Assembly: GCF_000282475.1 (NCBI RefSeq)
Contig: NZ_AKJF01000199.1
Location: 1 to 35,035, forward strand
Reading direction: 5' to 3'
DNA from: Pseudomonas sp. GM78
GTDB taxonomy: Bacteria > Pseudomonadota > Gammaproteobacteria > Pseudomonadales > Pseudomonadaceae
DNA: 35,035 nt
The first letter of the stretch is position 1. Each line of letters starts with the position of its first letter. Position numbers and translations under genes: made by a program. Below the pieces are notes generated by a model. It was not told the DNA's origin and did no database searches. It saw only the letters and a program-made list of their open reading frames with translations. Below are positions 21,534 through 34,864 of the stretch, one piece after another.

Positions 21534-21836
21534 CTACGAAGTCCGGTAATCAACCTGATGCCGCGCGATACGTGAGTTCCCCAACTCCCCTTTCACCCGC
21601 AGATGCTCGGGATGGGAGGCGTAGGCTTCCAGGGCTTCCCGGGAAGCGAATTCACTGTAGAGCACCACATCGCACGCATAGTCGATACGACTGAAATCCA
21701 CACCCACCTCGATTTTCAGAAGTCCGGGGATCAGCCCGGCAAGTCCTTCGAAACGCTCCTTGAGGAACAGGCAGGCCTGCTTGTGTTCCTCGGCCGTCTT
21801 GCCCTCCACCTTCCACATCACGATGTGCTTGATCAT
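21534..21836 (-). CDS. Dabb (stress-responsive alpha/beta barrel) family protein
   Basis: 100 residues. It starts MIKHIVMWKV and continues with ACDVVLYSEFASREALEAYASHPEHLRV, the pattern of Dabb ferredoxin-like proteins that dimerise into an alpha/beta barrel. GGGGAG is the ribosome site. It lies 36 bp after the ABC permease gene and is the last gene of the long leftward operon. Relatives include cyclases and small enzymes of aromatic or polyketide pathways as well as proteins of unknown role. Here it could act on an unstable aromatic or keto-sugar intermediate; this is a guess. Confidence 0.85.
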   Translation of the reverse strand: MIKHIVMWKVEGKTAEEHKQACLFLKERFEGLAGLIPGLLKIEVGVDFSRIDYACDVVLYSEFASREALEAYASHPEHLRVKGELGNSRIARHQVDYRTS

Positions 21837-21872
21837 CGCGAACTCCCCGCCGTGTCGGTCATGCCTGCCATA

Positions 21873-23063
21873 TCAAACCTTGCTCTTCTGATAAACATCC
21901 ACAAATACCGCCGCCAGCAACACGGCGCCCTTGATCATCTGCTGATAGTCGATACCGATGCCCATGATCGACATGCCGTTGTTGAGTACACCCATGATGA
22001 AGGCGCCGATCACCACGCCGACGACCTTGCCAACCCCGCCAGACGCCGAGGCGCCGCCGATGAACACCGCCGCGATCACATCCAGTTCGAAGCCGGAGCC
22101 CCCGCGTGGTGTAGCACTGTTGAGGCGGGCAACGAAAATCAGACCCGCCACTGCTGCAAGCACGCCCATGTTGACGAAGGCAAAGAAGGTCACCCGCGAC
22201 GTGTTGATCCCGGACAACTTGGCGGCTTTCAGATTGCCGCCCACGGCGTAGATCCAGCGACCGATCACGGTACGGTTCATGATGAAGGTGTACACGCCGA
22301 TCAACACACTCATGATCACCAGCACCGTGGGGATGCCGCGATACGTCGAGAGCAGGTAGCAGAAGTACACGATGAGCGCCGTGATCACGCCATTTTTCAG
22401 CGCGAACAGGGCCATGGGGGCGACGTTGCCGCCGCTCTTGTGCGTGCGTCTGCGACTACGGTATTCGACGACCCAGAACGCGGCGGCGACGGCGATGCCC
22501 ACCAGCAGGGAGGTAATGCGCAGGTGTTCATGGGCGAAGATGTCGGGGATGAAGCCCGAGCTGATCGCTGAAAAGGCCGGTGGGAACGGACCGATCGACT
22601 GCCCCTGGGAGATCGCGATGGTCGCGCCACGAAAGATCAGCATGCCCGCCAGGGTGACGATGAATGACGGCATGCCCCAGACCGCGACCCAATAGCCCTG
22701 CGCCGCGCCAATCAGCGCGCCGGTGGCCAGGCAGATGATCGTGACGGTGAAGAAGTCCATTCGATACTGGACCATCAGCACGGCAGCAATCGCTCCGATC
22801 ACGCCGACCACCGAACCGACCGACAGATCGATGTGACCGCAGACGATCACCATCAACATGCCCAGCGCCATGACCACGATGTAGCTGTTCTGCAACAACA
22901 GGTTGGTCAGGTTGAGCGGCTGCATCAGCGCCCCGCCGGTGGCCACCTGGAAGAACACCATGATGACGATCAACGAGGCCAGAAGACCGTATTCCCGAGC
23001 GCCACGCTTGATTGACGTGAGCGCCGTTGGTTTGGATGTGAGAGGTACGCTGACTTCGCTCAC
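21873..23063 (-). CDS. gguB: Multiple-monosaccharide ABC transporter permease
   Basis: 396 residues with about ten membrane segments. It starts at a GTG that overlaps the ATPase stop by 4 bp (GTGA) and has GAGGTGATCCA just upstream, so it is coupled to the ATPase gene. Features such as HIDLSVGSVVG, WVAVWGMPSFIVTLAGM and the C-terminal GGSGFELDVIAAVFIGGASASGG are those of the XylH/GguB branch of ribose-type permeases. It forms the membrane channel for sugars delivered by the ChvE-like protein encoded two genes upstream. Confidence 0.92.
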   Translation of the reverse strand: MSEVSVPLTSKPTALTSIKRGAREYGLLASLIVIMVFFQVATGGALMQPLNLTNLLLQNSYIVVMALGMLMVIVCGHIDLSVGSVVGVIGAIAAVLMVQYRMDFFTVTIICLATGALIGAAQGYWVAVWGMPSFIVTLAGMLIFRGATIAISQGQSIGPFPPAFSAISSGFIPDIFAHEHLRITSLLVGIAVAAAFWVVEYRSRRRTHKSGGNVAPMALFALKNGVITALIVYFCYLLSTYRGIPTVLVIMSVLIGVYTFIMNRTVIGRWIYAVGGNLKAAKLSGINTSRVTFFAFVNMGVLAAVAGLIFVARLNSATPRGGSGFELDVIAAVFIGGASASGGVGKVVGVVIGAFIMGVLNNGMSIMGIGIDYQQMIKGAVLLAAVFVDVYQKSKV

Positions 23064-24595
23064 TGGATCACCTCATTTTTCATGATTGCGTGCATGATTT
23101 TTTCCTGCGATGCCTGTGCGATCGGAAACTCGCCGACAAAGCGCCCTTCGTTCATCACATAAATCCGGTCACAGGTCCCCAGCAGCTCGGGCATCTCCGA
23201 GGAGATCATCACGACCCCCCTGCCCTCGCTGACGACTTGATTGACCACGCCGTAAATCTCGTACTTGGCCCCCACATCGATGCCGCGGGTGGGCTCGTCG
23301 AGAATCAACACCTTGGGATCGGAAAACAGCCACTTGCCCAGCACGACCTTCTGCTGGTTACCACCCGAGAGCTTGTCCACCGACTGCAATACATCCGGGG
23401 TGCGAATGCGCAGGCGCGCCTGGTAGTCGACGGCCACTTTGGTCTCGGCCAGTTCGTTCATCACCCAGCGTTTGGACACGGCGGCCAGGTTGGCCATGCT
23501 GGTGTTGCGCGTGATGCTCTCGCCCAACACCAGGCCCGCACCCTTGCGGTCTTCGGTGGCGTACGCCAGCCCTTGATCGATGGCCTTGCGCACCGTGCCG
23601 AGGTCGACTTCCCGTCCCTCCAGGCGAGCCTTGCCGCGAATGTTGGTGCCGTAGGTGCGGCCAAACACACTCATGGCGAATTCGGTACGGCCTGAGCCCA
23701 TCAACCCCGCGATGCCGACCACCTCGCCACGCCGCACATGGAAATTGATATTGCGAATGCGGTCACGACCAGGACGCTCGGGGTCGCCCACCGACCAGCC
23801 CTCGACCTCGAACAGCGTGTCGCCGATCTCGCTGACGCGGGACGGGTAGCGATCCGACAACTCGCGACCGACCATGGAGCGGATGACCCGAGCTTCATCG
23901 ATGGGCTCGGCGCGGCAGTCGATGACGTCGACGGTACTGCCGTCGCGAATCACCGTGATCTCGTCGGCCACGCGGCCAATCTCGTTGAGCTTGTGCGAAA
24001 TGATGATCGAGGTAATGCCACGCCCCTTGAGTTCAAGCATCAGCTTGAGCAAGGTGTCGCTGTCTTTTTCGTTGAGGCTGGCGGTGGGCTCGTCAAGGAT
24101 CAGCAGTCGCACGTCCTTGGCCAGCGCCTTGGCGATTTCCACCATTTGCTGCTGGCCGATGCCGAGTTTGCCCACCAGGGTCTGGGGGCTTGCATCAAGG
24201 CCGACACGAGCGAGCAAATCACGGGCTCGCCGGTGCGCCTGGTTCCAGTCGATTACGCCATGCCGGGCGATCTCATTGCCGAGAAACAGGTTCTCGGTGA
24301 TCGACAGCATTGGCACCAGTGCCAGCTCCTGGTGAATGATGCAAATGCCCAGTGCCTCACTGTCGCGCAACCCCTGGAAGGTTCTTGGCGAACCATCGAA
24401 GACAATTTCACCGGCGTAGCTGCCATGGGGATAGACGCCGCTGAGGATCTTCATCAGGGTCGATTTACCGGCACCGTTTTCACCGCAGATCGCATGGATT
24501 TCACCATCGCCGACCTTGAGGTTGACCCGGCTGAGCGCCTTCACAGGGCCGAAGCTCTTCTGGATATCACGCATATCGAGAATGGTTTTTGTCAT
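23060..24595 (-). CDS. gguA: Multiple-monosaccharide ABC transporter ATP-binding protein
   Basis: 511 residues from the ATG at 24595 (AGGAGAGAGAAA upstream). It has two fused ATPase halves. The first has a perfect Walker A, GENGAGKST (38-46), and a signature LGIGQQQMVE. The second has a degenerate Walker A (GLMGSGRTEF) and signature LSGGNQQKV, the normal asymmetry for sugar ABC ATPases such as XylG and GguA. The DEPT Walker B occurs in both halves. The gene lies 39 bp after the binding-protein gene and overlaps the permease gene by 4 bp. Confidence 0.94.
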   Translation of the reverse strand: MTKTILDMRDIQKSFGPVKALSRVNLKVGDGEIHAICGENGAGKSTLMKILSGVYPHGSYAGEIVFDGSPRTFQGLRDSEALGICIIHQELALVPMLSITENLFLGNEIARHGVIDWNQAHRRARDLLARVGLDASPQTLVGKLGIGQQQMVEIAKALAKDVRLLILDEPTASLNEKDSDTLLKLMLELKGRGITSIIISHKLNEIGRVADEITVIRDGSTVDVIDCRAEPIDEARVIRSMVGRELSDRYPSRVSEIGDTLFEVEGWSVGDPERPGRDRIRNINFHVRRGEVVGIAGLMGSGRTEFAMSVFGRTYGTNIRGKARLEGREVDLGTVRKAIDQGLAYATEDRKGAGLVLGESITRNTSMANLAAVSKRWVMNELAETKVAVDYQARLRIRTPDVLQSVDKLSGGNQQKVVLGKWLFSDPKVLILDEPTRGIDVGAKYEIYGVVNQVVSEGRGVVMISSEMPELLGTCDRIYVMNEGRFVGEFPIAQASQEKIMHAIMKNEVIQ

Positions 24596-24634
24596 TTTCT
24601 CTCTCCTGCCAGCACGCACCCATCACGGTTCGCC

Positions 24635-25705
24635 TTAGCGCAACTGCTCCGAGGTGTAGAACTTGGTGTCGTCCACCAGGACTTTCTGCCAGTTGTTGCC
24701 ATCGACCAGTTGTGGCGTGAGCAGTTGGGTCGGCACGATCATCACGCCGTTGTCGTAGGACGTGGAGTCATTGACCACCACCGTCTTGCCGCTCAAGCTG
24801 GCGTCCATCATCTGCGCAGCGGCCTCGGCGAGGGCGCGGGTGTCCTTGAAGATGGTCGAGGATTGATCGCCGCGAATGATCGACTTGATGCTGGCCACCT
24901 CGGCGTCCTGCCCGGTGACGATCGGCATGGCTGCCTTGCCCGTGCCGTAACCCACGCCGCGCAATGAAGACACCACGCCGGTTGCGATCTGGTCGTTCAT
25001 CGCCAGCACGGCGTCCAGGTGGGCGGTGCCGTAAAAGGCGCTGAGCAGGTTATCCATGCGCGCCTGGGCCTGGGCGCCATCCCAGTTGGGTGTCGCGACC
25101 TTTTCCATGGCCTGCTGGCCGCTACGAATCACCAGTTTGCCGCTGTCGATGTAGGGCTTGAGCTGCGACATCACGCCCGCGTACACCACATGGGCATTGT
25201 TGTCGTCGGTGGAGCCGGCGAAGATTTCCAGGTTGAACGGACCCTTGCCCTGCTGCAGTTGCAACTTGTCGACGATGGACTGGCCTTGCAGCACACCGGT
25301 GCGGTAGTTGTCGAAGGTGACGTAGTAGTCGAAGTCCTTGGTGCTGCGGATCAGCCGGTCATAGGAAATGACCTTGATGCCTTTTTCCTTGGCCTGCTTG
25401 AGCACATCGGCCATGGTCGTGCCATCGATCGGCGCGACGATCAGCCCCGTGATGCCCTTGACCATCATGTTTTCGATTTGCGACAGCTGGGTCGGTGCTT
25501 CGTATTGGGCGTACTGCAGGTCGGTGTCGTAGCCGAGCTTCTTCAACGAGTCGACGATACTGCTGCCGTCCGACACCCAGCGTGCTTCGGTTTTCGAGGG
25601 CATGGCCACGCCAATGGTGCCCTTGGTGCTGGTCGCGCTTTTATCGCAGGCACTGACGGCCAGTCCCAACAGTATTGCGCCGGCAATCTTGATGATCGTG
25701 TGCAT
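24635..25705 (-). CDS. chvE: ChvE-like sugar-binding lipoprotein of the GguAB importer
   Basis: 356 residues. The leader ends in LAVSAC, a lipobox, so the mature protein is probably lipid-anchored; Agrobacterium ChvE itself has an ordinary signal peptide. The body matches ChvE through VGIAMPSKTEARWVSDG, LSQIENMMVKG, SYDRLIRST, MDNLLSAFYGTA, GQDAEVASIKSI and STIFKDTRALA. ChvE binds several aldoses, among them arabinose, galactose, xylose and glucose. In this cluster the natural ligand could be a sugar, a sugar acid, a cyclitol or a glycoside. RBS AGAGGTCACC. Confidence 0.93.
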   Translation of the reverse strand: MHTIIKIAGAILLGLAVSACDKSATSTKGTIGVAMPSKTEARWVSDGSSIVDSLKKLGYDTDLQYAQYEAPTQLSQIENMMVKGITGLIVAPIDGTTMADVLKQAKEKGIKVISYDRLIRSTKDFDYYVTFDNYRTGVLQGQSIVDKLQLQQGKGPFNLEIFAGSTDDNNAHVVYAGVMSQLKPYIDSGKLVIRSGQQAMEKVATPNWDGAQAQARMDNLLSAFYGTAHLDAVLAMNDQIATGVVSSLRGVGYGTGKAAMPIVTGQDAEVASIKSIIRGDQSSTIFKDTRALAEAAAQMMDASLSGKTVVVNDSTSYDNGVMIVPTQLLTPQLVDGNNWQKVLVDDTKFYTSEQLR

Positions 25706-25811
25706 GGTGACCTCTTTTTCTTGTTGTGGGCATTTCTCGGGATGCAGGTCCCCTTCCGACCCTGAAAACAGAGTCGGCCGGGGTATTCATTTACGGGATG
25801 CGTGAAGCCGA

Positions 25812-26903
25812 TTACCTGGCCAGGAGGACTTCCTGGCCGTTCAACTCAGCGGACTCGAACAGCGCTTCGAGAATCACGTTGATGTTGTGCGCCTGGGTGG
25901 CGGGCACGGTCGAAGGGCTGCCGGTACGCAACGACTGGACGAAAGCTGCGGCTTCGCGATCGAAATACACCGGGTTGCCGATCTCGGCGATCTCCGGGGA
26001 ATAGACCGTTTTGCGCACCGCCCAGATCTCTGGAAAGCTGTTCTCGTTCCAGTGGGTCCAGCCTTGCTGATGGCCGTTCTTGCCATCGTGATAAAGCTTG
26101 TACGACGCCGGCATCGGCGTGGAGTGCATCACCCCGTGGGTGCCGTAGGCCGTGATGTCCCAGCTCTCGGTCCAGGGCATCGGATCCCAGGACATGAAGT
26201 CGATGGTGATCAACTTGTCATCGTAGTTGAGGACCGCGCCCACGGCGTCTTCGCGCGCCGAATCGCTCATCTGCCCGGCGAATTTGGTGATCCGCGCATT
26301 GACCGATTTGGGCATGCCGAAGTGCAGCAACAAACGGTCGATGGTGTGGCAGCCAATCACGTAGAAGGCACCACCGCGGTCGCCCGGTTGTTTCATGTGG
26401 TTGGTGTCGGCCTCATCGTGGGAACAGCCGGCATGGGCGCGAACCTGCAGGACCTTGCCGATCTCACCGCTCTGCAGCACTTGCTGCATCTTTTCCACCG
26501 ACGGCGCGTAACGCCAGCAATAGCCCACCTGGAACAACCCGCCGGTGCGCTCGACCGCTTCGACGATACGGGTGGTATCGATCGTGCCGCGACCCGCCGG
26601 CTTCTCGCAGAGCACGGCTTTGCCGGCTTCCAGGGCTTCGATGGCCCAGTCGGCCATCAGGTAGCTTTTTGGGTGCACCAGTACGACGTGCACGTTCGGG
26701 TCGGCGAGGATTTCTTCCTTGCTGCGCGCCTGCAAACCCAGTGCATCGCAGAAGGGCTCAAGCAACGGACTGTCGTCGTAGGCACCCAGGAACTGCGCGC
26801 CCGGTATGCGCTTGAACGCTTTGACGCGGCCCGACGTGTGTGGGTGGGTGATCCCCAGGCAGGCCACACCGATGGTGGCGCCACTCTCAAGCTGATAGGA
26901 CAT
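25812..26903 (-). CDS. Gfo/Idh/MocA-family oxidoreductase
   Basis: 363 residues. The N-terminal half is a Rossmann domain (IGVACLGITHPHTSGRVKAF), with the family's CEKPAG near residues 98-103 containing the catalytic lysine. GCHTIDRLL (about 202-210) holds the active-site histidine and aspartate. The C-terminal half is the usual beta-sheet domain. Members oxidise a sugar or cyclitol hydroxyl with NAD(P), often at C3 of a glycoside or C2 of inositol. The modified GxGxxG (ACLGITHPH) is a variant also seen in other family members. It lies 46 bp after an IolG-like gene, so two dehydrogenases of the same family work in one operon. GGGAGAACAAC is the ribosome site. Confidence 0.9.
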   Translation of the reverse strand: MSYQLESGATIGVACLGITHPHTSGRVKAFKRIPGAQFLGAYDDSPLLEPFCDALGLQARSKEEILADPNVHVVLVHPKSYLMADWAIEALEAGKAVLCEKPAGRGTIDTTRIVEAVERTGGLFQVGYCWRYAPSVEKMQQVLQSGEIGKVLQVRAHAGCSHDEADTNHMKQPGDRGGAFYVIGCHTIDRLLLHFGMPKSVNARITKFAGQMSDSAREDAVGAVLNYDDKLITIDFMSWDPMPWTESWDITAYGTHGVMHSTPMPASYKLYHDGKNGHQQGWTHWNENSFPEIWAVRKTVYSPEIAEIGNPVYFDREAAAFVQSLRTGSPSTVPATQAHNINVILEALFESAELNGQEVLLAR

Positions 26904-26949
26904 GTTGTTCTCCCGATGTTCTTGTCCGAAGTAGCGAGTAACGTTCGGC

Positions 26950-27945
26950 TCAGAGCCGGACCGCGCGCCCGGTCTTGACCGACTCGACAGCGGCGTCGGC
27001 CAGTTTCAGCGCCTTGAGGCCATCCTGTACGGTGGTCGGCATTGGGCTGCCTTTGACCAGCGCATCGATGTAGGCATCCAGTTCGGCCTTGTAGGCTTGC
27101 TGGTAGCGCTCGAGGAAGAAGTTCAGCAACGGCTCGCGAGCGTCGGTAACGTCCTGGCTCCAGCGACGGATGGTGGTCGGGCGCAGGTTGTCCATTTGCA
27201 GCATGCCTTTGGAGCCGAACACCTCGATGCGCTGGTCGTAGCCATAGACCGCCTGGCGGCAATTATTGATGTGGCACTGTTTGCCCGATGCAGTCTGCAT
27301 CTGCACCATCGCGGTGTCGTAGTCGTCGTACTTTTCCATCATCTGCGGGTCGATCAGGCGGCTGCCGATGGCGGTCAGTTCCACCGGTTCCTCGCCCAGC
27401 AGCCAACGGCCGATGTCCAGGTCATGGATGGTCATGTCGCGGAAGATGCCGCCGGAATGTTCAATATAGCCTTCTGGCGCCAGGCCCGGGTCGCGACTGC
27501 TGATGATCACCTGGCGCACCTCACCGATATCGCCGGCTTCAATCGCCGCGCGCATTTCTGCGAAGGTGGTCTCGAAGCGGCGGTTGAACGCGAGCATCAC
27601 CCGGCCGTTGAGGCGCTCCACTTCTTCCACCGCGGCCAGGCTCTTGGCCATGTCCAGATCGATCGGCTTCTCGCACAGCACCGCCTTGCCCTGGCGCACG
27701 GCGCGCAGCATCAGGCTGATATGAGTGTGGGTCGGGGTGCCGATGACGATGGCCTGGACGTCGTCGCGATCGATCGCCGCTTCGCAGTCGGTCATGGCGT
27801 CAGCGCCGAGTGCACCCGCCAATTGCTCAGCGGCATTGCCGAACGGGTCGGCTACCACCACCAGTTTTGCGAACGGGCTGGCCGCGACGTTGGCTGCGTG
27901 AATCTTGCCGATACGGCCGGCGCCGAGAACTGCGATACCTACCAT
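26950..27945 (-). CDS. iolG: Inositol 2-dehydrogenase-like Gfo/Idh/MocA oxidoreductase
   Basis: 331 residues. The NAD loop is GAGRIGKIHAANV. CEKPID has the catalytic lysine K93, and FRDMTIHDLD has D170 and H174, matching the K97-D172-H176 triad of Bacillus IolG. The usual IolG length is 330-345. It would oxidise myo-inositol, or a related polyol or sugar, to the 2-keto compound with NAD. No other iol gene (iolB, iolC, iolD) is in the window, so this may not be a standard inositol operon. The ribosome site is AGGAGAGAGACA. Confidence 0.85.
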   Translation of the reverse strand: MVGIAVLGAGRIGKIHAANVAASPFAKLVVVADPFGNAAEQLAGALGADAMTDCEAAIDRDDVQAIVIGTPTHTHISLMLRAVRQGKAVLCEKPIDLDMAKSLAAVEEVERLNGRVMLAFNRRFETTFAEMRAAIEAGDIGEVRQVIISSRDPGLAPEGYIEHSGGIFRDMTIHDLDIGRWLLGEEPVELTAIGSRLIDPQMMEKYDDYDTAMVQMQTASGKQCHINNCRQAVYGYDQRIEVFGSKGMLQMDNLRPTTIRRWSQDVTDAREPLLNFFLERYQQAYKAELDAYIDALVKGSPMPTTVQDGLKALKLADAAVESVKTGRAVRL

Positions 27946-28014
27946 TGTCTCTCTCCTGAAAACTCTATTGTTCGTTGTTGTGTACGAGCAAAATTGGCGT
28001 GTTTATCCGGTGCA

Positions 28015-28887
28015 TCAGTTCGGGAACTTGATCCCTTCGAACTGCGCGATGGTTGTTTCAAAGGCTCGCTTGGCGGCGACTTCCAGCGGCAGCTTGCGCA
28101 ACTCGGCGGAGATCAGCTCGACGCCCCAGGGCCCGTCGTAGCCGACGTTGACCACTTGCTGGATGAAGTCCGGCACGTCCAGCTGGCCTTCGCCGCACAA
28201 TTTGCGGTGGTGCGTGGAGTCGTTGAACAGGGTTTCGACGATGGCGTGGTTGGCGTCATCCAGCTCGATGGACTTGATCAACTCCAGCGGGATCTTGGCG
28301 ATTTCATCAAAGCTCATGCCGCCGCGCGCCACATGCCAGGTGTCGACCAGCAGGCCGCCGTTAGGACGTACGCCTTCGGCCACGGCAATCGCGAGGTCGA
28401 TGGTGCGCACGCTGGAAAACGGCAGGAACTCGATCACCACGTTGACGCCGAAGGGTTGGGCGCGGTCGCACAACAGGCCAAAGGTTTCACGCATGCGCGG
28501 TACATCGGGCAGGCCGTCTTCGAACAGGCCGCCGGCTACCTTGAGGCTGCGCGCACCGAGTTCGCCAGCGACTTCCAGCAGTTCATCGCGGATCTTGTCC
28601 GAGGCCGCGCGGCGCTCTCCGTCCAGGTGCCAGTCAGTCAGGAACTCCACTTCCAGGTGCTTGATGCCGTTGTCCTGGAAGATGTTACGCATGGTGGAGA
28701 TGCCCAGTTTCTCAACGTTGTGCAGGATGTCGGCATGCACCAGGCCCATGCCGCGCCAGCCGGCTTTCGATGCCGCTTCGGCACGCGCTTGCAAGGAGAA
28801 CGGACTGATCTCGCTGGGGGCGCCAGGGTATGTGTCGCCAGCGAGGGTCCAGTAGGCGGCAAGCAGTTCAATACTTTTATTTGGCAT
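28015..28887 (-). CDS. TIM-barrel sugar isomerase/epimerase or dehydratase (AP endonuclease 2 family)
   Basis: 290 residues from the ATG at 28887; a GTG nine bases earlier is an alternative, and neither has a strong ribosome site. Xylose-isomerase-like TIM-barrel features are seen: E153 (VVIEFLPF), D182 and H185 (LLVDTWHVARGG), a THHRKLCGEGQLD loop with H226/H227, and E257 (GPWGVELIS), all plausible divalent-metal ligands. IolE (2-keto-myo-inositol dehydratase), IolI, 3-keto-glycoside lyases and C-glycoside deglycosidase subunits share this fold. Set between two dehydrogenase genes and a ring-cleavage dioxygenase gene, it probably dehydrates, isomerises or splits the keto compound they make. 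Confidence 0.85.
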   Translation of the reverse strand: MPNKSIELLAAYWTLAGDTYPGAPSEISPFSLQARAEAASKAGWRGMGLVHADILHNVEKLGISTMRNIFQDNGIKHLEVEFLTDWHLDGERRAASDKIRDELLEVAGELGARSLKVAGGLFEDGLPDVPRMRETFGLLCDRAQPFGVNVVIEFLPFSSVRTIDLAIAVAEGVRPNGGLLVDTWHVARGGMSFDEIAKIPLELIKSIELDDANHAIVETLFNDSTHHRKLCGEGQLDVPDFIQQVVNVGYDGPWGVELISAELRKLPLEVAAKRAFETTIAQFEGIKFPN

Positions 28888-28939
28888 GACGATCACTTAT
28901 GAGTGAGTGGTTTCAGGACGGTCGCTAACAGTTTTTTGT

Positions 28940-29836
28940 TCAGGCCGGGGTCAGGACAAAGTCCCAATTCACCGCCAGGAACGGCACCTGCAAGTCATAG
29001 CGCTGCGCAACGTGCGGGTCGGTTTGGGTGGTGAACTCGGCGATCAGTTCTTTCTTCACGCCGAACACGGTGTCCTCGTGCAAGTACGGGCAGTCGGGGG
29101 TGAAAATGTGCGTGATGACCTGGTCGTAACCTTCGGCAGTCACGATGAAATGCAAATGCGCGGCCCGGTTGGGGTGGCGGCCCAGATCACCCAGCAACTT
29201 GCCCACGGGGCCATCGGCGGGAATCGGGTAATGACGCGGCTTGACCGTGCGGAACGCGTAGTAGCCGTCGGCATCGGTGGTGAACAGGCCGCGCAGGTTG
29301 TAATCCGGTTGTACGCCTTTTTGCTGCACGTCATAGAAACCGTCGTCGTTGGTTTGCCAGATGTCCAGGGTTGCACCGGCAATCGGCCGACCGGCCGTGT
29401 CCAGCACCCGACCGCTGACCAGCGTTGGCTCGCCCTTGCCATCCAGGCAGATGTTCGCGCCGTTCTCATAGCGCGGCGCATCGGCCACGTAGAAAGGGCC
29501 AAGGATCGTGTTAGGCGTGGCGCCCTTGGGCCGGCGATGGTTGATCGCATCCACCAGCATGGTTGCACCCAGCACGTCCGACAGCAGGATGTATTCCTGG
29601 CGCCAGTCGGTGCACATCTGCCCGGTTTGGGTCAGGAACTCGATAGCCTTGAACCACTCATCGTGCGTCGGCTCGATTTCCTTGATGGCCGCGTGCAGAT
29701 GCCGGGTGAGTACCGACATGATCTCAACCAGCCGTGGATTGGCGTCGGCCGAGTTGCGGGCATTGACGATCTCGGCGGAGTGTTCCTCTTCGAAAAGGCC
29801 GCCGATGGCGATGTCGGTATCCAGATGAGCAGTCAT
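28940..29836 (-). CDS. Intradiol ring-cleavage dioxygenase, hydroxyquinol 1,2-dioxygenase type
   Basis: 298 residues from the ATG at 29836 (AAGGACCTCACGTC upstream). All four Fe(III) ligands are present: Y116 in ILGPFYVADAP, Y203 in PRHYPIPADGPVG, and H227 and H229 in RAAHLHF. The helical N-terminal domain (about 1-105) is the usual dimerisation part. LDIWQTNDDGFYDVQ and NLRGLFTTDADGYY form the substrate pocket typical of hydroxyquinol rather than protocatechuate enzymes. It would cleave 1,2,4-trihydroxybenzene to maleylacetate, which the maleylacetate reductase at 33797-34864 could reduce to 3-oxoadipate. Catechol activity cannot be excluded. It sits in a sugar-type operon between a sugar-porter MFS gene and a TIM-barrel gene. 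Confidence 0.93.
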   Translation of the reverse strand: MTAHLDTDIAIGGLFEEEHSAEIVNARNSADANPRLVEIMSVLTRHLHAAIKEIEPTHDEWFKAIEFLTQTGQMCTDWRQEYILLSDVLGATMLVDAINHRRPKGATPNTILGPFYVADAPRYENGANICLDGKGEPTLVSGRVLDTAGRPIAGATLDIWQTNDDGFYDVQQKGVQPDYNLRGLFTTDADGYYAFRTVKPRHYPIPADGPVGKLLGDLGRHPNRAAHLHFIVTAEGYDQVITHIFTPDCPYLHEDTVFGVKKELIAEFTTQTDPHVAQRYDLQVPFLAVNWDFVLTPA

Positions 29837-29914
29837 GACGTGAGGTCCTTGTTTCATTGTTCTTGAAGGCCGGCAGGCTGTTCAGGTTTGACTGCCGGCA
29901 AGCGCTGGTCGTTC

Positions 29915-31348
29915 TCAATAGGCCTGGGCGTCGGCAGCACGCCATTTACGACCGTTGAAGCGTTGCTTCATCTGCTGCTCGATCTCTTCCAGGGTCAGCC
30001 CTTTGGTTTCCGGCAACCACAGCGTGCAGAAGACGATCGAGCCGATGTTCACCACCGCAAAGAGGAAGAAGGTCATACCGCCCATCACGCTCAGCAGCAC
30101 CGGGAAAACGAAGGCGACGATGGCGTTGAAAATCCAGAATACGCTCACTGAAATGCCATTCATCAAGCCACGGGCGTGGGTCGGGAACAGTTCCGACATC
30201 AGCAGCCAGTAGACCGGGCCGATGCACATCTGCATGAAGAACAGGAACACCAGCACACCAGACAGCGCCAGGTAGCTTTGCACCAGCGAGTGCGGCATGA
30301 AGTTGAGCACCACACCGAGGAAGATCTGCGCCAGCACCACCACGGTCAGCCCCAACAACAGCATCGAACGCCGACCCATGCGGTTGATCACCCACATGCC
30401 GATCAGGGTGGCGATCACCGAGATCACGCCGTTGCCAATGGTGGCGATCAGCGCGGCATTGATGCCCATCCCGGTCTCCTTGAGGATCATCGGCGTGTAA
30501 TACATGAACGCGTTGACACCGGTGAACTGGATCACGAAACCAAGGCCGATACCAATGGCGAGCAACTTGAGCAGCCAGGGTTCATTGAGCGTGGCGAGCA
30601 CACTTGAATGGCGCTGTTCGACCTTGCACTGGGAGATGATTTCCTTCAGCTCGCGGTCGGCCTCGCGTTGCGTGTCACGAATACCGGCCAGGACCGTCTT
30701 GGCCTCGGCAACACGGCCTTTGCTGACCAGCCAGCGTGGCGAAGTGGGGACGAAATGCATGCCAACGTACAGCAGCGCCGCGGGTATCAAGGCGATCGCC
30801 AGCATGTAGCGCCAGATGGTCGGGCTATCGAACAGGTGTGCCAGCCCGGCACTGGCGATGTAGGCCAGGCATTGACCGGAGACGATCATCAATTCGCTCT
30901 GGCACACCAGCCGTCCGCGATGCTTGGGCGCCGCCAGCTCGGCGATCAGCACCGGCACGGTGGACGATGCACCGCCGACGGCGATACCGAGAATGAAGCG
31001 GGTGACGACCATGGACCACATGTCCGGGGCCAGCGCGGTGCCCAGGGCACCCAATGCAAACAACAGGGCCAAGGCCTTGAGTACGCCGAGACGACCATAA
31101 CGGTCGGATAACTGACCGGCGAACAGTGCACCCACTGCGCCGCCGAATATCAGGGAAGACGCCACCAGACCTTCCGAGACCGGGGTCAGGCCCAGGCCGC
31201 CCTGGCTGGCATCCAGCGACATGAAGGGCAATGCACCGGAGATGACACCGGTGTCGTAACCGAAACCCAATGACCCCATGGTGGTGATGGCTGCGATACG
31301 CCAGAGAATTTTCGACGACGCACTACCGGCAGTTCGACTGTTGGACAT
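29915..31348 (-). CDS. MFS transporter, sugar-porter family
   Basis: 477 residues from the ATG at 31348 (AAGGTTGACCTC upstream). Twelve membrane segments are expected. Sugar-porter marks are GFGYDTGVISGAL in TM1, DRYGRLGVL after TM2, PTSPRWL after TM6, NAFMYYTP in TM7, NRMGRR and LPETKGLTLEEIE at the end. These match the galactose/xylose/myo-inositol branch (GalP, XylE, IolT) rather than aromatic-acid symporters. It is the first gene of the long leftward operon and suggests that the growth substrate is a sugar, cyclitol or similar polyol. Confidence 0.92.
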   Translation of the reverse strand: MSNSRTAGSASSKILWRIAAITTMGSLGFGYDTGVISGALPFMSLDASQGGLGLTPVSEGLVASSLIFGGAVGALFAGQLSDRYGRLGVLKALALLFALGALGTALAPDMWSMVVTRFILGIAVGGASSTVPVLIAELAAPKHRGRLVCQSELMIVSGQCLAYIASAGLAHLFDSPTIWRYMLAIALIPAALLYVGMHFVPTSPRWLVSKGRVAEAKTVLAGIRDTQREADRELKEIISQCKVEQRHSSVLATLNEPWLLKLLAIGIGLGFVIQFTGVNAFMYYTPMILKETGMGINAALIATIGNGVISVIATLIGMWVINRMGRRSMLLLGLTVVVLAQIFLGVVLNFMPHSLVQSYLALSGVLVFLFFMQMCIGPVYWLLMSELFPTHARGLMNGISVSVFWIFNAIVAFVFPVLLSVMGGMTFFLFAVVNIGSIVFCTLWLPETKGLTLEEIEQQMKQRFNGRKWRAADAQAY

Positions 31349-31439
31349 GAGGTCAACCTTTATTGAAGTTATGTGTGCACTCAGTGGGAATGAGACTACT
31401 GCCATTGAATCGGAAGAAAAACGTTCATATGGCAAATGT

Positions 31440-31460
31440 GTTTTCCGGCTGGTGGAAAAC
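31440..31460. terminator. Inverted repeat just after the LysR gene
   Basis: GTTTTCC (31440-31446) and GGAAAAC (31454-31460) pair around a 7-nt loop, 5 bp beyond the leftward LysR stop and about 90 bp before the MFS start. It may end LysR transcription or serve as a regulator site. No T-run follows on the leftward strand, so it would be a weak terminator. Confidence 0.35.
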
Positions 31461-31465
31461 TGCGG

Positions 31466-32380
31466 CTAGCGCGTCCAGTAGCGCTCATATTCATGCTCGG
31501 CAAAATCGGCGAGCAAGAAGTCGATGAACACCCGCAGCTTGGTCGGCATGTAGCGCCGGCTCTGAAACGCCATGTTGATCGTCAAGCGAGGTAGGTCCCA
31601 CTCATCCAGCACCGGGATCAAGCGCCCCGCCACCAGGTCGGCGTTGATGATGTACTTGGGCTGCACCAGGATGCCGCCATGCGCCAGCGCCGCTGCCCGA
31701 ACGATCTGCCCGTCGTTGGTTTCCAGGATGGGATCGACCTTGATCGCGACTTCTTCGTCGCCTTTGGTGAAACGCATGACCCGCGGCTGGTTGGCATGGC
31801 TGTAGATCAACAGGTCATGGTTGACCAGGTCATCAATGGTTTTGGGCGTGCCCTTGCGCTGCAAGTAGCCGGGTGATGCGGCCAGGACCCTGCGGGTTTC
31901 CGCGAGCCGGCGGATGGTGATGTTGGAGTCTGGCTCGTATTCCTTGGTCCTGATCGCCAGGTCGATTTCGCTATCGATGATGTCGTAATAGCGGTTTTCG
32001 CCCAGCACCTTGACGGTGATATGCGGGTACTTCTTGCGAAACGCCGGGATCAGCGGCGCGATATGCAGCATGCAGAATGAGATCGACGAGGTGATGGTCA
32101 GGGTGCCGACCGGCTGTACCAGGGATTCGGTGAGCGAAGCCTCGGCTTCCTTGAGCTCGCCGAGCAAGCTCTTGCAACTCGTATAGAACTGATGGCCCGA
32201 ATGGGTCAGCGCCAGCCGGCGAGTGTTGCGATCGATCAACCTCACGTTCAGTCGTTGCTCCAGCGCCACCAGGTGTCGACTCGCCGCCGCATTGGACAAG
32301 CCGAGGAATTCGGCGGCCTTGCTCAAGGTGCCCAACTCGGCCGTCGTTACAAAAAGCTCCAGTTCGGTTAGCCGATCCAT
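31466..32380 (-). CDS. LysR-family transcriptional regulator
   Basis: 304 residues. The N-terminal winged helix is clear (LGTLSKAAEFLGLSNAAASRHL, then LEQRLNVRLIDRNTRRLALT). The rest is the two-lobed effector domain, of the CrgA/AaeR-like LysR type often annotated in Pseudomonas. It lies upstream of, and in the same direction as, the MFS-dioxygenase operon, and is divergent from the pseudo-dioxygenase/NTF2/maleylacetate reductase operon, so it is placed to control both halves of the pathway. The inducer would be an aromatic or pathway intermediate; this is inferred. Confidence 0.92.
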   Translation of the reverse strand: MDRLTELELFVTTAELGTLSKAAEFLGLSNAAASRHLVALEQRLNVRLIDRNTRRLALTHSGHQFYTSCKSLLGELKEAEASLTESLVQPVGTLTITSSISFCMLHIAPLIPAFRKKYPHITVKVLGENRYYDIIDSEIDLAIRTKEYEPDSNITIRRLAETRRVLAASPGYLQRKGTPKTIDDLVNHDLLIYSHANQPRVMRFTKGDEEVAIKVDPILETNDGQIVRAAALAHGGILVQPKYIINADLVAGRLIPVLDEWDLPRLTINMAFQSRRYMPTKLRVFIDFLLADFAEHEYERYWTR

Positions 32381-32401
32381 CGCGTGCTCCGTCTTTTAGT
32401 T

Positions 32402-32463
32402 TTTCATATATGAAATAAAGAATTTCTTTATCGGACTTTTTTTGCGCTGTTTGGAACTATAAC
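32402..32463. promoter_or_regulatory. Two abutting palindromes and a -10-like box between LysR and the rightward operon
   Basis: TTTCATATATGAAA (32402-32415) is a perfect 14-bp palindrome. It shares its last base with ATAAAGAATTTCTTTAT (32415-32431), whose 8-bp arms match exactly around one central T. TATAAC at 32458-32463 is a possible -10 for the rightward operon, with no good -35. This would place the second palindrome near -40, where a LysR protein activates. All roles are inferred. Confidence 0.55.
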
Positions 32464-32553
32464 GTGCAGTGCCATAGCCTGAACAGATCGGTTGGCGGTG
32501 TAGCCGCGAGTGCCGGCAGGGCGTGAAAAAATCTGAAGAATTCGGGAGTCACG

Positions 32554-33396
32554 ATGCGCAATCTGGACGAAGCCTCCATCACCCAAGCCGTATTGGCGCG
32601 TAACAGTGGTGCCACGGACGCGCGCTTGTGTGAAGTCATGACCAGCCTCGTGCAGCACCTGCATGCCTTTGCTCGTGACATCAAACTGACGGAAAAAGAG
32701 TGGCAACAGGGAATGGCGTTTCTGGCCCAGGCGGGCAAGGTCAGCTCTGCGGATCGCCAGGAATTCGTGCTCCTTTCCCACACCTTGGGGCTGTCGACCC
32801 TGGTGCTGGCGCAGAACGACAGGAAGCCCGCCGGCTGCACCGAAGCCACAACCCTCCCTGTGCTGGAGGCGCCGGCCGCGACGATCCACGATCTGGGCGC
32901 CGATATAAACACCGGACACGTCGGGCCCAGGCTGCATGTGCGCGGGGTGATTCATGACGTCAAGGGCAATCCCGTTCCCGGTGCCACGCTGCGGATATCT
33001 ACGGCAGGCGGCGCCCAGGACGGTGGCCATGCCTTGATTCAAGCCGATCAGACCGGGGGCTACCATTTCTGGACCGTCGTGCCCGATGGCCAGCCCATCC
33101 TTGACGACGGGCCTGTCGGTCACATGCTGACATCGCTCAATCGCCATGCATGGCGCCCGGCCCACTTGCAGTTCGACATCAGCGCAACAGGCTTCCAGCG
33201 CTTGAACACCCAGGTGTTTCGCGAAGGCGACCCGTATCTGGATTCGGACGCGGTATTTGGCGTGCGCCCTTCATTGATTGCGCAATGGCTCCGGCAAGAA
33301 CCCGGCCAGGCCCCGGACGGCACGTTAATCAGCGAAGCGTTCCATACCTTGGCGTTCGACTTTGTCCTGACCGAAGCTCGAGGGGCCCATGAATAA
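32554..33396 (+). CDS. Degenerate intradiol dioxygenase homologue, probably not catalytic
   Basis: 280 residues with a good ribosome site (GGGAG). It aligns end to end with the intact enzyme at 28940-29836: same helical N-terminal domain, DRQEFVLLSHTLG for WRQEYILLSDVLG, LDDGPVGHMLTSLNRH for PADGPVGKLLGDLGRH, and DSDAVFGVR for HEDTVFGVK. Three of four iron ligands are gone. The first tyrosine region reads TTLPVLEAP with no tyrosine, the second tyrosine is Q180, and the second histidine is Q206 in AHLQF; only H204 remains. About 20 residues of the substrate pocket are also deleted. The frame is intact, with normal codons, so it seems maintained. It may bind a ligand, a metal by another route, or a partner. 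The next gene overlaps it by 8 bp. Confidence 0.88.
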   Translation: MRNLDEASITQAVLARNSGATDARLCEVMTSLVQHLHAFARDIKLTEKEWQQGMAFLAQAGKVSSADRQEFVLLSHTLGLSTLVLAQNDRKPAGCTEATTLPVLEAPAATIHDLGADINTGHVGPRLHVRGVIHDVKGNPVPGATLRISTAGGAQDGGHALIQADQTGGYHFWTVVPDGQPILDDGPVGHMLTSLNRHAWRPAHLQFDISATGFQRLNTQVFREGDPYLDSDAVFGVRPSLIAQWLRQEPGQAPDGTLISEAFHTLAFDFVLTEARGAHE

Positions 33397-33775
33397 CGAC
33401 AGTACTGTCATCAAGGAACTTGAGGCGCAACGTTACCTGGCCATGCGCCAAGGTGACTTGCCAGCCTTTGAAAGGCTGTCCCACCCGCAGTTGACCTACG
33501 TCCACTCCAACGGCGTCCAGGACAGTTTGAGCAGTTACCTGAGCAAATGCCGTGACGGTCTCTACGTCTATCACCGCATCGACCACCTGATTCATCAAGT
33601 TCGGTGTTCAGGCGATACCGCCCTCGTCTTTGGAGAAATGTCAGCCGACATCACGTCCCATGGCGTCGCCAAAACCATTCACAACCGCACGCTGACGGTC
33701 TGGGTGAAGGCCGGCCTGCAATGGCAGTTTTTCGCTTATCACCCCACGCCCATGGCCAAACCTTCAGCGCTCTAA
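33389..33775 (+). CDS. NTF2-like / SnoaL-type (DUF4440-like) small protein
   Basis: 128 residues. It begins inside the last codons of the dioxygenase-like gene (8-bp overlap). MNNDSTVIKELEAQRYLAMRQGD, FERLSHPQLTYVHSNG, DSLSSYLSKCRDG, YHRIDHLIHQVRCSGDTALVFGEM, RTLTVWVKAGLQWQFFAYHPTP form the helix-then-sheet cone of NTF2-like proteins. Such proteins bind small hydrophobic molecules and some act as isomerases or dehydratases. Set between a dioxygenase homologue and maleylacetate reductase, it could act on a ring-cleavage product or its precursor. No specific catalytic residue can be named with confidence. Confidence 0.85.
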   Translation: MNNDSTVIKELEAQRYLAMRQGDLPAFERLSHPQLTYVHSNGVQDSLSSYLSKCRDGLYVYHRIDHLIHQVRCSGDTALVFGEMSADITSHGVAKTIHNRTLTVWVKAGLQWQFFAYHPTPMAKPSAL

Positions 33776-33796
33776 CTGCCCCCGGAGAACCGCCCC

Positions 33797-34864
33797 ATGT
33801 CCACCCTACCCTTCATCTATAACGGCCAACCGTCGCGCGTCATTTTCGGCAAGGGCTCGCTGCAACAACTGGAAGCGGAAATCGATCGGTTGGGCGCCAA
33901 ACGGGCACTGGTACTGTGCACCCCGGAACAGCGTTCCCAGGCTGAGCACATCGCGCAATTGCTGGGCAGTCGTGCCGCCGATATTTTCGACAAGGCCGTC
34001 ATGCATGTGCCCATCGAAACCGCCCGCGAGGCTCGCGAAGTCGCACGCAAACTGGGTGCCGATTGTGCAGTCGCCATTGGCGGTGGCTCGACCACAGGTT
34101 TGGGCAAGGCCATCGCCATGGACTCGGGCCTGCCGATCCTGGCGATCCCGACCACCTACGCCGGCTCCGAAATGACACCGGTATTCGGCCTGACCGAAAA
34201 CGGCCTCAAGCGCACCGGCAAAGACCCACGCGTACTGCCCAAAACCGTGATCTATGACCCTGAGCTCAGCGTCAGCCTGCCCCTGGATATGTCCATCACC
34301 AGTGGCATGAACGCCATCGCCCACGCCGCCGAAGGTTTGTACGCCCAGGATGGCAACCCGGTCATGTCGCTGATGGCCGAAGAAGGCATCCGTGCACTGG
34401 CCGAAGGCATGAAAAAAATCCATCAGAGCCCATCCGACATCGATGCTCGCGGCGATTGCCTGTACGGCGCCTGGCTATGCGGCACGGTGCTTGGCAATGT
34501 CGGCATGGCCCTGCACCACAAGCTGTGCCACACCCTGGGCGGCAGCTTCAATTTGCCCCATGCACAAACCCACACCATCGTGCTGCCCCACGCCATCGCC
34601 TACAACCAGCCCGCCGCGCCGGCACTGTCGCGCATCAGCCGGGCGCTGAACGTGGATGATTGCAGTCCCGCCGCTGCGCTGTTCGATCTTTCCAGTTCGC
34701 TGGGTGCACCGACCCGGCTCAAGGACCTGGGCCTGACCGAGGCGGATCTGGATCGCGCCACTGACATCGCACTGTCCAACCCTTACTGGAATCCGCGGCC
34801 TATCGAAGCAACGGCAATCCGTCAGTTGCTGCAAGACGCTTTTGACGGCGTTCGCCCGCAGTGA
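33797..34864 (+). CDS. Maleylacetate reductase (iron-type alcohol dehydrogenase family)
   Basis: 355 residues with ribosome site GGAGAACCGCCCC. VIFGKGSLQQLEAEIDRLG, AIGGGSTTGLGKAIA (about 93-107), PTTYAGSEMTPVFG and GMALHHKLCHTLGGSFNLPHAQTHTIVLPH match maleylacetate reductases (MacA, TftE and relatives). It reduces maleylacetate to 3-oxoadipate with NAD(P)H, completing hydroxyquinol breakdown. It is the last gene of the rightward operon; the dioxygenase that would make its substrate is intact only in the divergent leftward operon. This split makes shared control by the LysR gene between them likely. Confidence 0.95.
   Translation: MSTLPFIYNGQPSRVIFGKGSLQQLEAEIDRLGAKRALVLCTPEQRSQAEHIAQLLGSRAADIFDKAVMHVPIETAREAREVARKLGADCAVAIGGGSTTGLGKAIAMDSGLPILAIPTTYAGSEMTPVFGLTENGLKRTGKDPRVLPKTVIYDPELSVSLPLDMSITSGMNAIAHAAEGLYAQDGNPVMSLMAEEGIRALAEGMKKIHQSPSDIDARGDCLYGAWLCGTVLGNVGMALHHKLCHTLGGSFNLPHAQTHTIVLPHAIAYNQPAAPALSRISRALNVDDCSPAAALFDLSSSLGAPTRLKDLGLTEADLDRATDIALSNPYWNPRPIEATAIRQLLQDAFDGVRPQ

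Follow-up and report, generated by a model that had tools for sequence, protein, structure and literature searches.

A gene cluster of Pseudomonas sp. GM78 is proposed here to be a dedicated module for the catabolism of cyclitols (ring polyols), in which one oxidation and two losses of water would yield hydroxyquinol, to be followed by ring opening and the formation of 3-oxoadipate; we regard this reading as rather probable. The gene set suggests an unrecorded conversion of ring sugar alcohols into a phenol, which then serves as food. A literature search confined to open-access papers gave no paper pairing quercitol with hydroxyquinol or hydroxyquinol with 'inositol dehydrogenase', and, among the titles and abstract openings listed, no work linking cyclitol catabolism to hydroxyquinol cleavage save a paper on indole in Corynebacterium glutamicum. 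The gene families, the intact site of the dioxygenase and the conservation of the cluster as one module are read from the sequences themselves.

Methods

The window is the whole stretch of DNA analysed, 35,035 nucleotides of contig NZ_AKJF01000199.1. Gene families were assigned with Pfam and NCBIfam models, the scores being given in bits against the cut-off of each model. A scan with the TIM-barrel protein of the cluster (TIM) yielded 78 loci, in which genes were called by identity thresholds, the Dabb gene being counted at an identity of at least 50%. Ten ordinary Pseudomonas loci with a hydroxyquinol-type dioxygenase (HQD) and a maleylacetate reductase (MAR) served as the control.

Gene organisation

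All the genes named in the first-pass annotation were located by Pfam and NCBIfam within positions 21534-34864 of the window:

21534..21836 (-), Dabb protein, 100 aa, final gene of the presumed operon (PF07876, 81.7 bits, cut-off 25)
21873..23063 (-), GguB, ABC permease (NF040906, 547.7 bits, cut-off 450)
23060..24619 (-), GguA, ABC ATPase (NF040905, 827.5 bits, cut-off 810)
24635..25705 (-), ChvE-type sugar-binding protein (NF040907, 462.8 bits, cut-off 460; nearest solved structure 3URM, ChvE)
25812..26903 (-), Gfo2, protein of the Gfo/Idh/MocA fold (Pfam only)
26950..27945 (-), IolG-type cyclitol dehydrogenase (TIGR04380, 395 bits, cut-off 355)
28015..28896 (-), TIM, proposed aromatising dehydratase (PF01261, 80 bits, cut-off 31)
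28940..29857 (-), HQD, hydroxyquinol-type 1,2-dioxygenase with intact iron site (Pfam intradiol dioxygenase)
29915..31435 (-), sugar-porter MFS transporter (TIGR00879, 343 bits, cut-off 237.8)
31466..32380 (-), LysR regulator (PF00126 and PF03466)
32554..33396 (+), psHQD, intradiol-dioxygenase homologue without iron site, frame open
33389..33775 (+), SnoaL-like/DUF4440 protein (PF14534, 49.6 bits)
33797..34864 (+), MAR (Fe-ADH Pfam; solved relatives include the MARs 3HL0 and 3W5S)

On the minus strand the genes follow one another in the order LysR-MFS-HQD-TIM-IolG-Gfo2-ChvE-GguA-GguB-Dabb with intergenic gaps of -4 to 106 bp, and likely form a co-transcribed unit, MAR being divergent. The Dabb protein is a candidate small dehydratase or tautomerase and the SnoaL-like/DUF4440 protein a candidate small dehydratase; a DUF4440 gene is also present in one Acinetobacter and one Rhodococcus version of the cluster.

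Ring-cleaving enzymes

The intact hydroxyquinol-type dioxygenase and the divergent maleylacetate reductase described in the first-pass annotation were both borne out. HQD matches solved hydroxyquinol-type dioxygenases with E-values of 1.5e-93 to 4e-62, as against 2e-43 for the best catechol dioxygenase, and retains two Tyr and two His residues (Y175, Y210, H234, H236), the four iron ligands; it is predicted to act as a hydroxyquinol 1,2-dioxygenase. MAR has the Fe-ADH fold, and while its best solved match (3JZD, E 3.5e-163) is named merely iron-containing alcohol dehydrogenase, the second and third (3HL0, 3e-125; 3W5S, 5e-122) are both named maleylacetate reductase.

TIM-barrel protein

Three TIM-barrel proteins of the same genome were compared with the TIM profile, and QuiC (E 7e-18 over 238 columns) is by far the nearest, the E-values being 3.7e-5 for a hydroxypyruvate-isomerase-like protein and 2.8e-4 for IolE. 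TIM is much closer to the aromatising 3-dehydroshikimate dehydratase than to inosose dehydratase. Five residues, E156, D185, H188, E211 and E260, presumably the metal ligands, are invariant in 44 of 44 rows, and the acidic and His positions align to QuiC. TIM falls below the curated QuiC model, a two-domain NCBIfam model of 635 aa, with 53.5 bits (N-terminal part only) against a cut-off of 1200, which the genuine QuiC of the genome passes with 1295 bits; the IolE model TIGR04379 is absent among the NCBIfam matches of TIM at E 0.001. An unassigned TIM-barrel protein, near locus L039, slightly beats QuiC against the TIM profile (E 1e-20); it is QuiC-like, yet at 50.8 bits also lies under the QuiC cut-off.

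IolG and Gfo2

The description of two Gfo/Idh/MocA dehydrogenases stands only in part. Both genes encode the fold, and IolG carries the Lys-Asp-His residues and the GxGxxG motif, exceeds the TIGR04380 cut-off for inositol 2-dehydrogenase and has inositol dehydrogenases (3EUW, 4HKT) as its nearest solved structures; by these likenesses a related cyclitol is as possible a substrate as an inositol. In the Gfo2 family, the region of the NAD motif reads THPHTSGR and not GxGxxG, and Val replaces the catalytic Asp of IolG, both in 56 of 56 rows, with Lys and His kept; a GxGxx[GA] match occurs somewhere in the first 60 aa in one of the 56. With neither the NAD motif nor the catalytic Asp in Gfo2, the plural 'dehydrogenases' is open to doubt, and a non-redox (dehydratase-like) or atypical redox step is proposed for this protein. 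Its best solved match, at an E-value of just 1e-14, is DgpA, a C-deglycosylation enzyme.

Conservation of the cluster

The gene set singled out in the first-pass annotation is conserved together in other genera: HQD, MAR, IolG, Gfo2 and Dabb accompany TIM in 43 of the 78 loci, under 19 genus-level labels. An HQD-family gene is present in 70 of these loci, HQD and MAR together in 61 and a Dabb gene, at the threshold given above, in 66; HQD was not found in eight, within the stretches read. Conversely, HQD occurs in all 52 IolG loci and in 53 of the 55 Gfo2 loci, and the genomes found through Gfo2 alone have HQD-family, TIM, IolG and Dabb genes nearby in 11 cases out of 11, with MAR in ten and a contig end in the eleventh. 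Chance neighbourhood was rejected in view of this recurrence in many genera.

The versions of the cluster differ in content. The compact Paraburkholderia version L096 consists of six enzymes, an importer and a regulator, and in such compact versions neither a gene for a sugar half nor a separate lower pathway was seen. The Acinetobacter version holds genes for the 3-oxoadipate exit (a CoA-transferase pair and pcaF) and the Agrobacterium version holds pcaF. Short-chain dehydrogenases (SDRs) are the dehydrogenases in the Rhodococcus jostii and Agrobacterium versions, and several Paraburkholderia/Caballeronia TIM loci have a distant IolG-like gene (24-27%). The one examined, at L113, is levoglucosan-dehydrogenase-like, so that the substrate of some TIM proteins may be a different keto-sugar; as the dehydrogenases vary, the versions are unlikely to share a single substrate. 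In one Caballeronia locus TIM and Gfo2 are accompanied by an extradiol-type dioxygenase and a FAH-family hydrolase, with no HQD in the stretch read, and L117 has TIM, MAR and HQD together with a FAD hydroxylase. An amidohydrolase gene occurs in some versions, owing to which an aminocyclitol substrate was considered; no positive evidence for it was obtained. P. daroniae and P. dryadis are oak isolates, a circumstance outside the present evidence.

Hydroxyquinol and hydroquinone pathways of aromatic degraders have HQD and MAR in common with the window cluster, but TIM, IolG, Gfo2 and Dabb occur in none of the ten control loci. PnpD is present in seven of these and a FAD hydroxylase in two others, so that nine of ten have a FAD hydroxylase or hydroquinone dioxygenase, as against one of the 78 TIM loci (PnpD none, FAD hydroxylase one) in a search for homologues of three query proteins, which other hydroxylases could escape. 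With such homologues absent from 77 of the 78 loci, ordinary phenol degradation is an unlikely role.

Proposed pathway and alternatives

A cyclitol would be taken up by the sugar-porter MFS or by ChvE-GguAB, and IolG would convert one of its ring hydroxyls into a ketone. Two waters would then leave this keto-cyclitol: TIM may catalyse the last, aromatising dehydration, as in 3-dehydroshikimate dehydratase, while the other dehydration or a tautomerisation may fall to Gfo2, to a small alpha-beta protein (Dabb, SnoaL-like) or to both. The resulting hydroxyquinol would be opened by HQD to maleylacetate, which MAR would reduce to 3-oxoadipate, to be finished by beta-ketoadipate enzymes encoded elsewhere. 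The substrate, both dehydrations and the order of the steps are what we infer from the genes. Going by formula, the deoxy-inositol quercitol would be the simplest starting compound (C6H12O5 - 2H - 2 H2O = C6H6O3), and it may be the actual one. Protected myo-inositol gives a 1,2,4-oxygenated benzene by threefold elimination, and a 1,2,3,5-tetraoxygenated ring arises when an inosose sheds two benzyl alcohols; a deoxy-inosose would therefore give three oxygens.

The first-pass annotation had set this deoxy-inositol route beside the oxidation and elimination of an aromatic glycoside, and the former is favoured. Conservation of the module, the likeness of IolG to inositol dehydrogenases and of TIM to dehydroshikimate dehydratase, and the near-absence of hydroxylase homologues support it, apart from the share given to more than one dehydrogenase, as does the C. 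glutamicum counterpart described below, in which an inositol transporter is paired with MAR and HQD under a repressor most responsive to 1,2,4-trihydroxybenzene. For the glycoside, an aryl glycoside would be imported, its sugar oxidised by the Gfo proteins, the bond broken by beta-elimination in the TIM barrel and the freed hydroxyquinol cleaved. The DgpA match of Gfo2, the sugar-type importer and the L113 dehydrogenase speak for such a scheme; it is nevertheless weakened, and we consider it unlikely, given an inositol-dehydrogenase-like IolG, a Gfo2 family without GxGxxG and catalytic Asp, and compact versions such as L096 in which nothing was seen for the sugar half. Moreover, since homologues of the hydroxylases sought are so rare at TIM loci, the glycoside would need to carry hydroxyquinol as its aglycone.

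An ordinary inositol might instead be oxidised, dehydrated, re-reduced by Gfo2 and relieved of two more waters (C6H12O6 - 3 H2O = C6H6O3), which would make a deoxy-cyclitol unnecessary and would agree with two Gfo-fold genes, the TIGR04380 score of IolG and the activity of C. glutamicum OxiD on myo- and D-chiro-inositol. The missing redox residues of Gfo2, the slight in vitro effect of inositol on the binding of IhtR to the MAR-HQD promoter of C. glutamicum and a canonical IolE elsewhere in the genome (382.6 bits, cut-off 290) make this, too, improbable. Given that IolE, the cluster is in all likelihood dispensable for myo-inositol, and the canonical myo-inositol pathway was rejected as its main role. 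Protected keto-inositol derivatives aromatise chemically, so HQD and MAR could merely clear phenols arising by chance from unstable keto-cyclitols while the main route opens the ring as IolD does; with HQD-MAR kept across many genera and no separate lower pathway seen in versions such as L096, this is quite improbable. Least credible is the coincidence of two unrelated catabolic modules side by side. The divergent orientation of MAR and psHQD relative to the window's main operon would suit it, but in the versions from Azospirillum (L070), Paraburkholderia (L096) and Rhizobium (L076) MAR is co-directional with HQD, TIM, IolG and Gfo2, and HQD lies nearby in every one of the Gfo2 genomes.

Comparison with known systems

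Quinate and shikimate are converted to protocatechuate by a dehydrogenase, a dehydratase and QuiC, and on to 3-oxoadipate through an intradiol dioxygenase. The cyclitol route would run in parallel: once oxidised and dehydrated, a ring polyol would be made aromatic by a TIM barrel related to QuiC and then opened by an intradiol enzyme. The route differs in having no carboxylate, hydroxyquinol instead of protocatechuate, an inositol-type dehydrogenase, and the addition of Gfo2, Dabb and MAR. With the canonical iol pathway the cluster shares an IolG-type dehydrogenase as the first enzyme, but IolE is a weak relative of TIM, and no IolB/C/D-like gene is among the Pfam/NCBIfam families of the window cluster.

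A similar gene set is described, in the parts of the published accounts drawn on here, from C. glutamicum (PMC9603128, PMC7764795). There the inositol transporter gene iolT2 shares an operon with MAR and HQD (rhcM2D2) under IhtR, an IclR-type repressor, and the iol2 cluster is oxiC-cg3390-oxiD-oxiE, in which cg3390 is a putative sugar phosphate isomerase, OxiD is active on myo- and D-chiro-inositol and OxiC is without assigned function. Compared by gene content alone, as published, iol2 and iolT2-rhcM2D2 hold the same set (inositol transporter, MAR, dioxygenase, cg3390, inositol dehydrogenases), in an actinobacterial host and with an IclR-type regulator where the window cluster has LysR. OxiC, like Gfo2, has no complete GxGxxG and no Asp179 (PMC9603128, PMC7764795), and in our alignment it has Ile where Gfo2 has Val. 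IhtR is released from DNA by 1,2,4-trihydroxybenzene at 0.05 mM (the lowest), hydroquinone at 0.5 mM and indole at 4 mM, inositol at 5 mM having barely any effect on binding in vitro; rhcM2 RNA in vivo with inositol or resorcinol was 'comparable to indole addition', so inositol is not singled out, and these parts of the accounts assign no cyclitol substrate to the MAR-HQD operon (PMC9603128, PMC7764795).

A bolder generalisation is put forward tentatively, as possible though less than probable: that a widespread, unrecorded aromatisation of cyclitols exists, in which a single oxidation and two enzyme-catalysed dehydrations turn carboxylate-free ring sugars (deoxy-inositols such as quercitol) into hydroxyquinol and 3-oxoadipate follows, with Gfo2, and probably OxiC, having given up NAD-dependent chemistry to perform one of the dehydrations. 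If true, the proposal would join sugar-alcohol and aromatic catabolism, fields kept apart, show what bacteria make of plant cyclitols, among them the quercitol reported from oak and eucalyptus (PMC8919412), and name a candidate enzyme route from sugar to polyphenol. It would also give a reason for the C. glutamicum inositol transporter sharing an operon with hydroxyquinol-cleaving enzymes, and a possible role for OxiC.

The iron-less dioxygenase homologue

At the four iron-ligand columns psHQD has a gap, Gln, His and Gln, and these columns are not YYHH in any of the 11 rows of its clade. An active dioxygenase is judged unlikely as the ligands are absent, and so is a plain dead gene, the frame being open and dN/dS 0.09-0.19 (11 pairs); psHQD is evolving under constraint despite the lost iron site. 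The HQD tree fits a replacement, within the cluster, of one HQD lineage by another.

Gene organisation of the cluster

The window spans all 35 kb of contig C199. The genome, 7.29 Mb in size, has Pseudomonas as its closest named relatives in the scan with TIM (below). The window carries at 21534-34864 all of the uptake, cyclitol-type oxidation and hydroxyquinol dioxygenase genes that the first-pass annotation had assigned to a single locus. These are:

21534-21836, minus strand: Dabb protein
21873-23063, minus strand: GguB
23060-24619, minus strand: GguA
24635-25705, minus strand: ChvE
25812-26903, minus strand: Gfo2, second Gfo/Idh/MocA protein
26950-27945, minus strand: IolG, inositol-dehydrogenase-type protein
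28015-28896, minus strand: TIM, TIM-barrel protein
28940-29857, minus strand: HQD, intradiol dioxygenase
29915-31435, minus strand: sugar-porter MFS (Pfam/NCBIfam)
31466-32380, minus strand: LysR (Pfam/NCBIfam)
32554-33396, plus strand: psHQD, intradiol-type ORF
33389-33775, plus strand: SnoaL/DUF4440 protein
33797-34864, plus strand: MAR, maleylacetate reductase

The minus-strand genes from LysR to Dabb are separated by gaps of -4 to 106 bp, which makes a single operon likely, and the MAR gene is divergent from this row, as had been described. The cluster has the same make-up in a complete genome of the same species (G632), where none of the six ORFs scanned past MAR was obviously related to the pathway.

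HQD matches solved 6-chlorohydroxyquinol/hydroxyquinol-type dioxygenases with E-values of 1.5e-93 to 4e-62, against 2e-43 at best for catechol dioxygenases, and retains all four iron-ligand positions; the earlier description of an intact hydroxyquinol-type dioxygenase is thus upheld as a predicted activity. The solved relatives of MAR include 3HL0 and 3W5S, each named maleylacetate reductase.

Conservation of the gene set

The psHQD ORF was traced through 249 genomes of the genus, this one among them, from which 18 regions of relatives and two of the own genome were taken. The cluster recurs in three of these 18 (L035, L036 and L041, the last on a contig that stops short of SnoaL and MAR). A further five (L037-L040, L043) contain a psHQD orthologue with intact ligands, accompanied by LysR, MAR and SnoaL in four and by TIM in three. 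Another Pseudomonas genome carries decayed remnants of MAR and HQD (L042:11948-13809).

A TIM profile built from seven proteins was searched against 84,980 species, each represented by a single genome, and the best 80 of 197 confirmed stretches, representing 78 loci, were analysed up to 10 kb on each side (thresholds: at least 40% identity to either window dioxygenase for the HQD family, at least 50% for IolG and at least 60% for Gfo2; any hit for GguA). An HQD-family gene was found in 70 of the 78 loci, MAR in 62, both together in 61, IolG in 52, Gfo2 in 55, Dabb in 66 and GguA in 71, in a sample that is biased because the search starts from TIM and query-like proteins. The linkage proposed for the window extends beyond Pseudomonas: HQD, MAR, IolG, Gfo2 and Dabb occur together in 43/78 loci under 19 labels, mostly genera, including Pseudomonas (16), Paraburkholderia, Caballeronia, Azospirillum, Rhizobium, Aureimonas, Thioclava, Polaromonas, Collimonas and Cupriavidus. 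HQD was not found within the stretch analysed (up to 10 kb on each side) in eight loci (L073, L093, L095, which is a 4.5-kb contig, L112, L116, L120, L128 and L129).

Counting the own genome each time, Gfo2 occurs in 10 of the 298 genomes searched in the genus, in 2 of 398 in the phylum and in 1 of 369 in the class. The search starting from Gfo2 yielded 11 different genomes, one of the same species, and in the stretches read all 11 carry HQD-family, TIM, IolG and Dabb genes; MAR is present in ten, the contig ending in the remaining one. The HQD ligands are intact in ten, the unaligned sequence of G645 (L159) being unmatched by a simple motif pattern. The Gfo2 family is sharply bounded: of the 30 matches listed among 757 plasmid records with a hit, 13 show 60-80% identity and the other 17 at most 27.2%. 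The module is real and conserved.

Upstream enzymes and the proposed chemistry

Of the two Gfo/Idh/MocA dehydrogenases claimed in the first-pass annotation, one is well founded: IolG scores above the inositol 2-dehydrogenase cut-off and its nearest solved structures are inositol dehydrogenases. Gfo2 keeps Lys and His but has Val in place of the catalytic Asp and THPHTSGR at the GxGxxG site of NAD enzymes (both 56/56 rows), a GxGxx[GA] match elsewhere within the first 60 residues occurring in one row; it is therefore not counted as a proven dehydrogenase. Gfo2 is nevertheless under strong constraint (dN/dS 0.01-0.07): among the five genes compared, its value is the lowest, or ties for lowest, in 8 of 11 pairs, and in the remaining three MAR has a lower one.

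The sole NCBIfam match of TIM is to the N-terminal part of the 3-dehydroshikimate dehydratase QuiC, far under the whole two-domain cut-off. Among own-genome proteins the TIM profile matches QuiC (itself 1295 bits, cut-off 1200) at 7e-18, a hydroxypyruvate-isomerase-like protein at 3.7e-5 and IolE at 2.8e-4; it matches an unassigned TIM-barrel protein near L039, which is itself QuiC-like (50.8 bits), at 1e-20. The acidic and His residues that line up with those of QuiC do not vary across the 44 rows (44/44).

By formula balance, quercitol (C6H12O5) would lose 2H through IolG to give C6H10O5, and the loss of two waters would give C6H6O3, the formula of hydroxyquinol; Gfo2, Dabb and the SnoaL-like protein are candidates for the first water. 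TIM would act on its own substrate as QuiC acts on dehydroshikimate, and since hydroxyquinol is protocatechuate with OH replacing COOH, the two steps would be parallel. Inositol as a substrate would need one more reduction and the loss of a third water. Work in organic synthesis shows that inositol rings can aromatise in such a manner (PMC11467972). Exit genes for 3-oxoadipate, a CoA-transferase pair and pcaF (732 bits, cut-off 597), lie in an Acinetobacter cluster, pcaF lies near the Agrobacterium cluster, and outside the cluster the own genome encodes two proteins of pcaJ/scoB type that score above the cut-off. The module is probably a cyclitol-to-hydroxyquinol pathway resembling the quinate pathway in its build, with quercitol and the dehydration steps as candidates. 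No description of it was found in the open-access literature searched and, as far as this search extends, the module is undescribed.

Control and variant loci

Ten other Pseudomonas HQD-MAR loci (L044-L053, one from the own genome; L045 cut by a contig end; Pfam check on four) served as controls, and TIM, IolG, Gfo2 and Dabb were found in none of them. A PnpD-like hydroquinone dioxygenase subunit is encoded in seven of the ten as against 0/78 TIM loci, and an FAD hydroxylase in two, both without PnpD, as against 1/78. With such genes in 9/10 controls and 1/78 TIM loci, these enzymes are probably not the source of hydroxyquinol in the latter. The exception points the other way: in Novosphingobium L117 (5331-12899), genes for an FAD hydroxylase and an epoxide-hydrolase-like protein accompany TIM-MAR-HQD, so that TIM stands in another setting there. 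A single dehydrogenase of the L113 type was analysed and also points away from the cyclitol reading, being levoglucosan-dehydrogenase-like, though below the cut-off (313 vs 650 bits).

Plasmid pRHL1 of Rhodococcus jostii RHA1 has a row of TIM, SDR, HQD, MAR, a SnoaL-like gene, another SDR and a sugar-type ABC ATPase, and in Agrobacterium two SDRs sit between HQD and TIM with MAR ahead. In Caballeronia L073 (3771-12196), TIM, an SDR, ABC genes and Gfo2 are accompanied by an extradiol-type dioxygenase and an FAH-family hydrolase, HQD not being found within the stretch analysed (up to 10 kb on each side); this arrangement suggests a catechol-like intermediate, whatever the ring-opening enzyme. 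At L097 (7463-12981), YCII, FMN reductase, amidohydrolase and beta-keto acid cleavage enzyme genes lie beside HQD, Dabb, TIM and MAR; an amino-cyclitol is a possible substrate here, given the amidohydrolase.

Counterpart in Corynebacterium glutamicum

The iol2 and iolT2-rhcM2D2 genes of C. glutamicum were compared with the window cluster by their published gene content; cg3389-cg3392 presumably adjoin the iolT2 operon, judging from gene numbers. According to one report, iolT2-rhcM2D2 is controlled by the repressor IhtR (Cg3388). In vitro, 0.05 mM 1,2,4-trihydroxybenzene was enough to release it, the lowest concentration of any compound; hydroquinone required 0.5 mM and indole 4 mM, and 5 mM inositol, resorcinol, catechol or protocatechuate scarcely had an effect. 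RNA levels measured in vivo after adding inositol or resorcinol are described as 'comparable to indole addition' (PMC7764795). A second report gives the iol2 cluster as oxiC-cg3390-oxiD-oxiE: myo- and D-chiro-inositol are oxidised by OxiD, whereas no function is assigned to OxiC, in which Asp179 and a complete GxGxxG are missing. The words 'dioxygenase' and 'quercitol' occur nowhere in that paper (PMC9603128).

The iron-less homologue and other window genes

In a tree made by a quick method, psHQD forms one clade (11 rows from 11 Pseudomonas loci, SH-aLRT 100, frame open) nearest to intact Pseudomonas and Acinetobacter HQDs. The complete YYHH ligand set is absent in 11/11 rows, and each of the 11 loci additionally encodes an HQD from a different lineage whose ligand motifs are intact. 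Over one set of 11 pairs, pairwise dN/dS (a simple Nei-Gojobori count, dS exceeding 1 in several pairs) is 0.09-0.19 for psHQD vs 0.04-0.11 for HQD; psHQD is faster-evolving yet still under selection, and is possibly a working pseudo-enzyme or a subunit.

Elsewhere in the window, 1124-3430 is a putative frame of 768 codons without a Pfam match, and a Sir2-family gene (17056-17868) has neighbouring ORFs that are likewise unmatched. Genes for an OprD-type porin, a TctA-type transporter, an HMG-CoA-lyase-like protein and an HMG-CoA reductase are adjacent at 4218-9732, adjoined by a GntR/aminotransferase (MocR-like) regulator, and this group looks like a cluster for the use of mevalonate or hydroxymethylglutarate.
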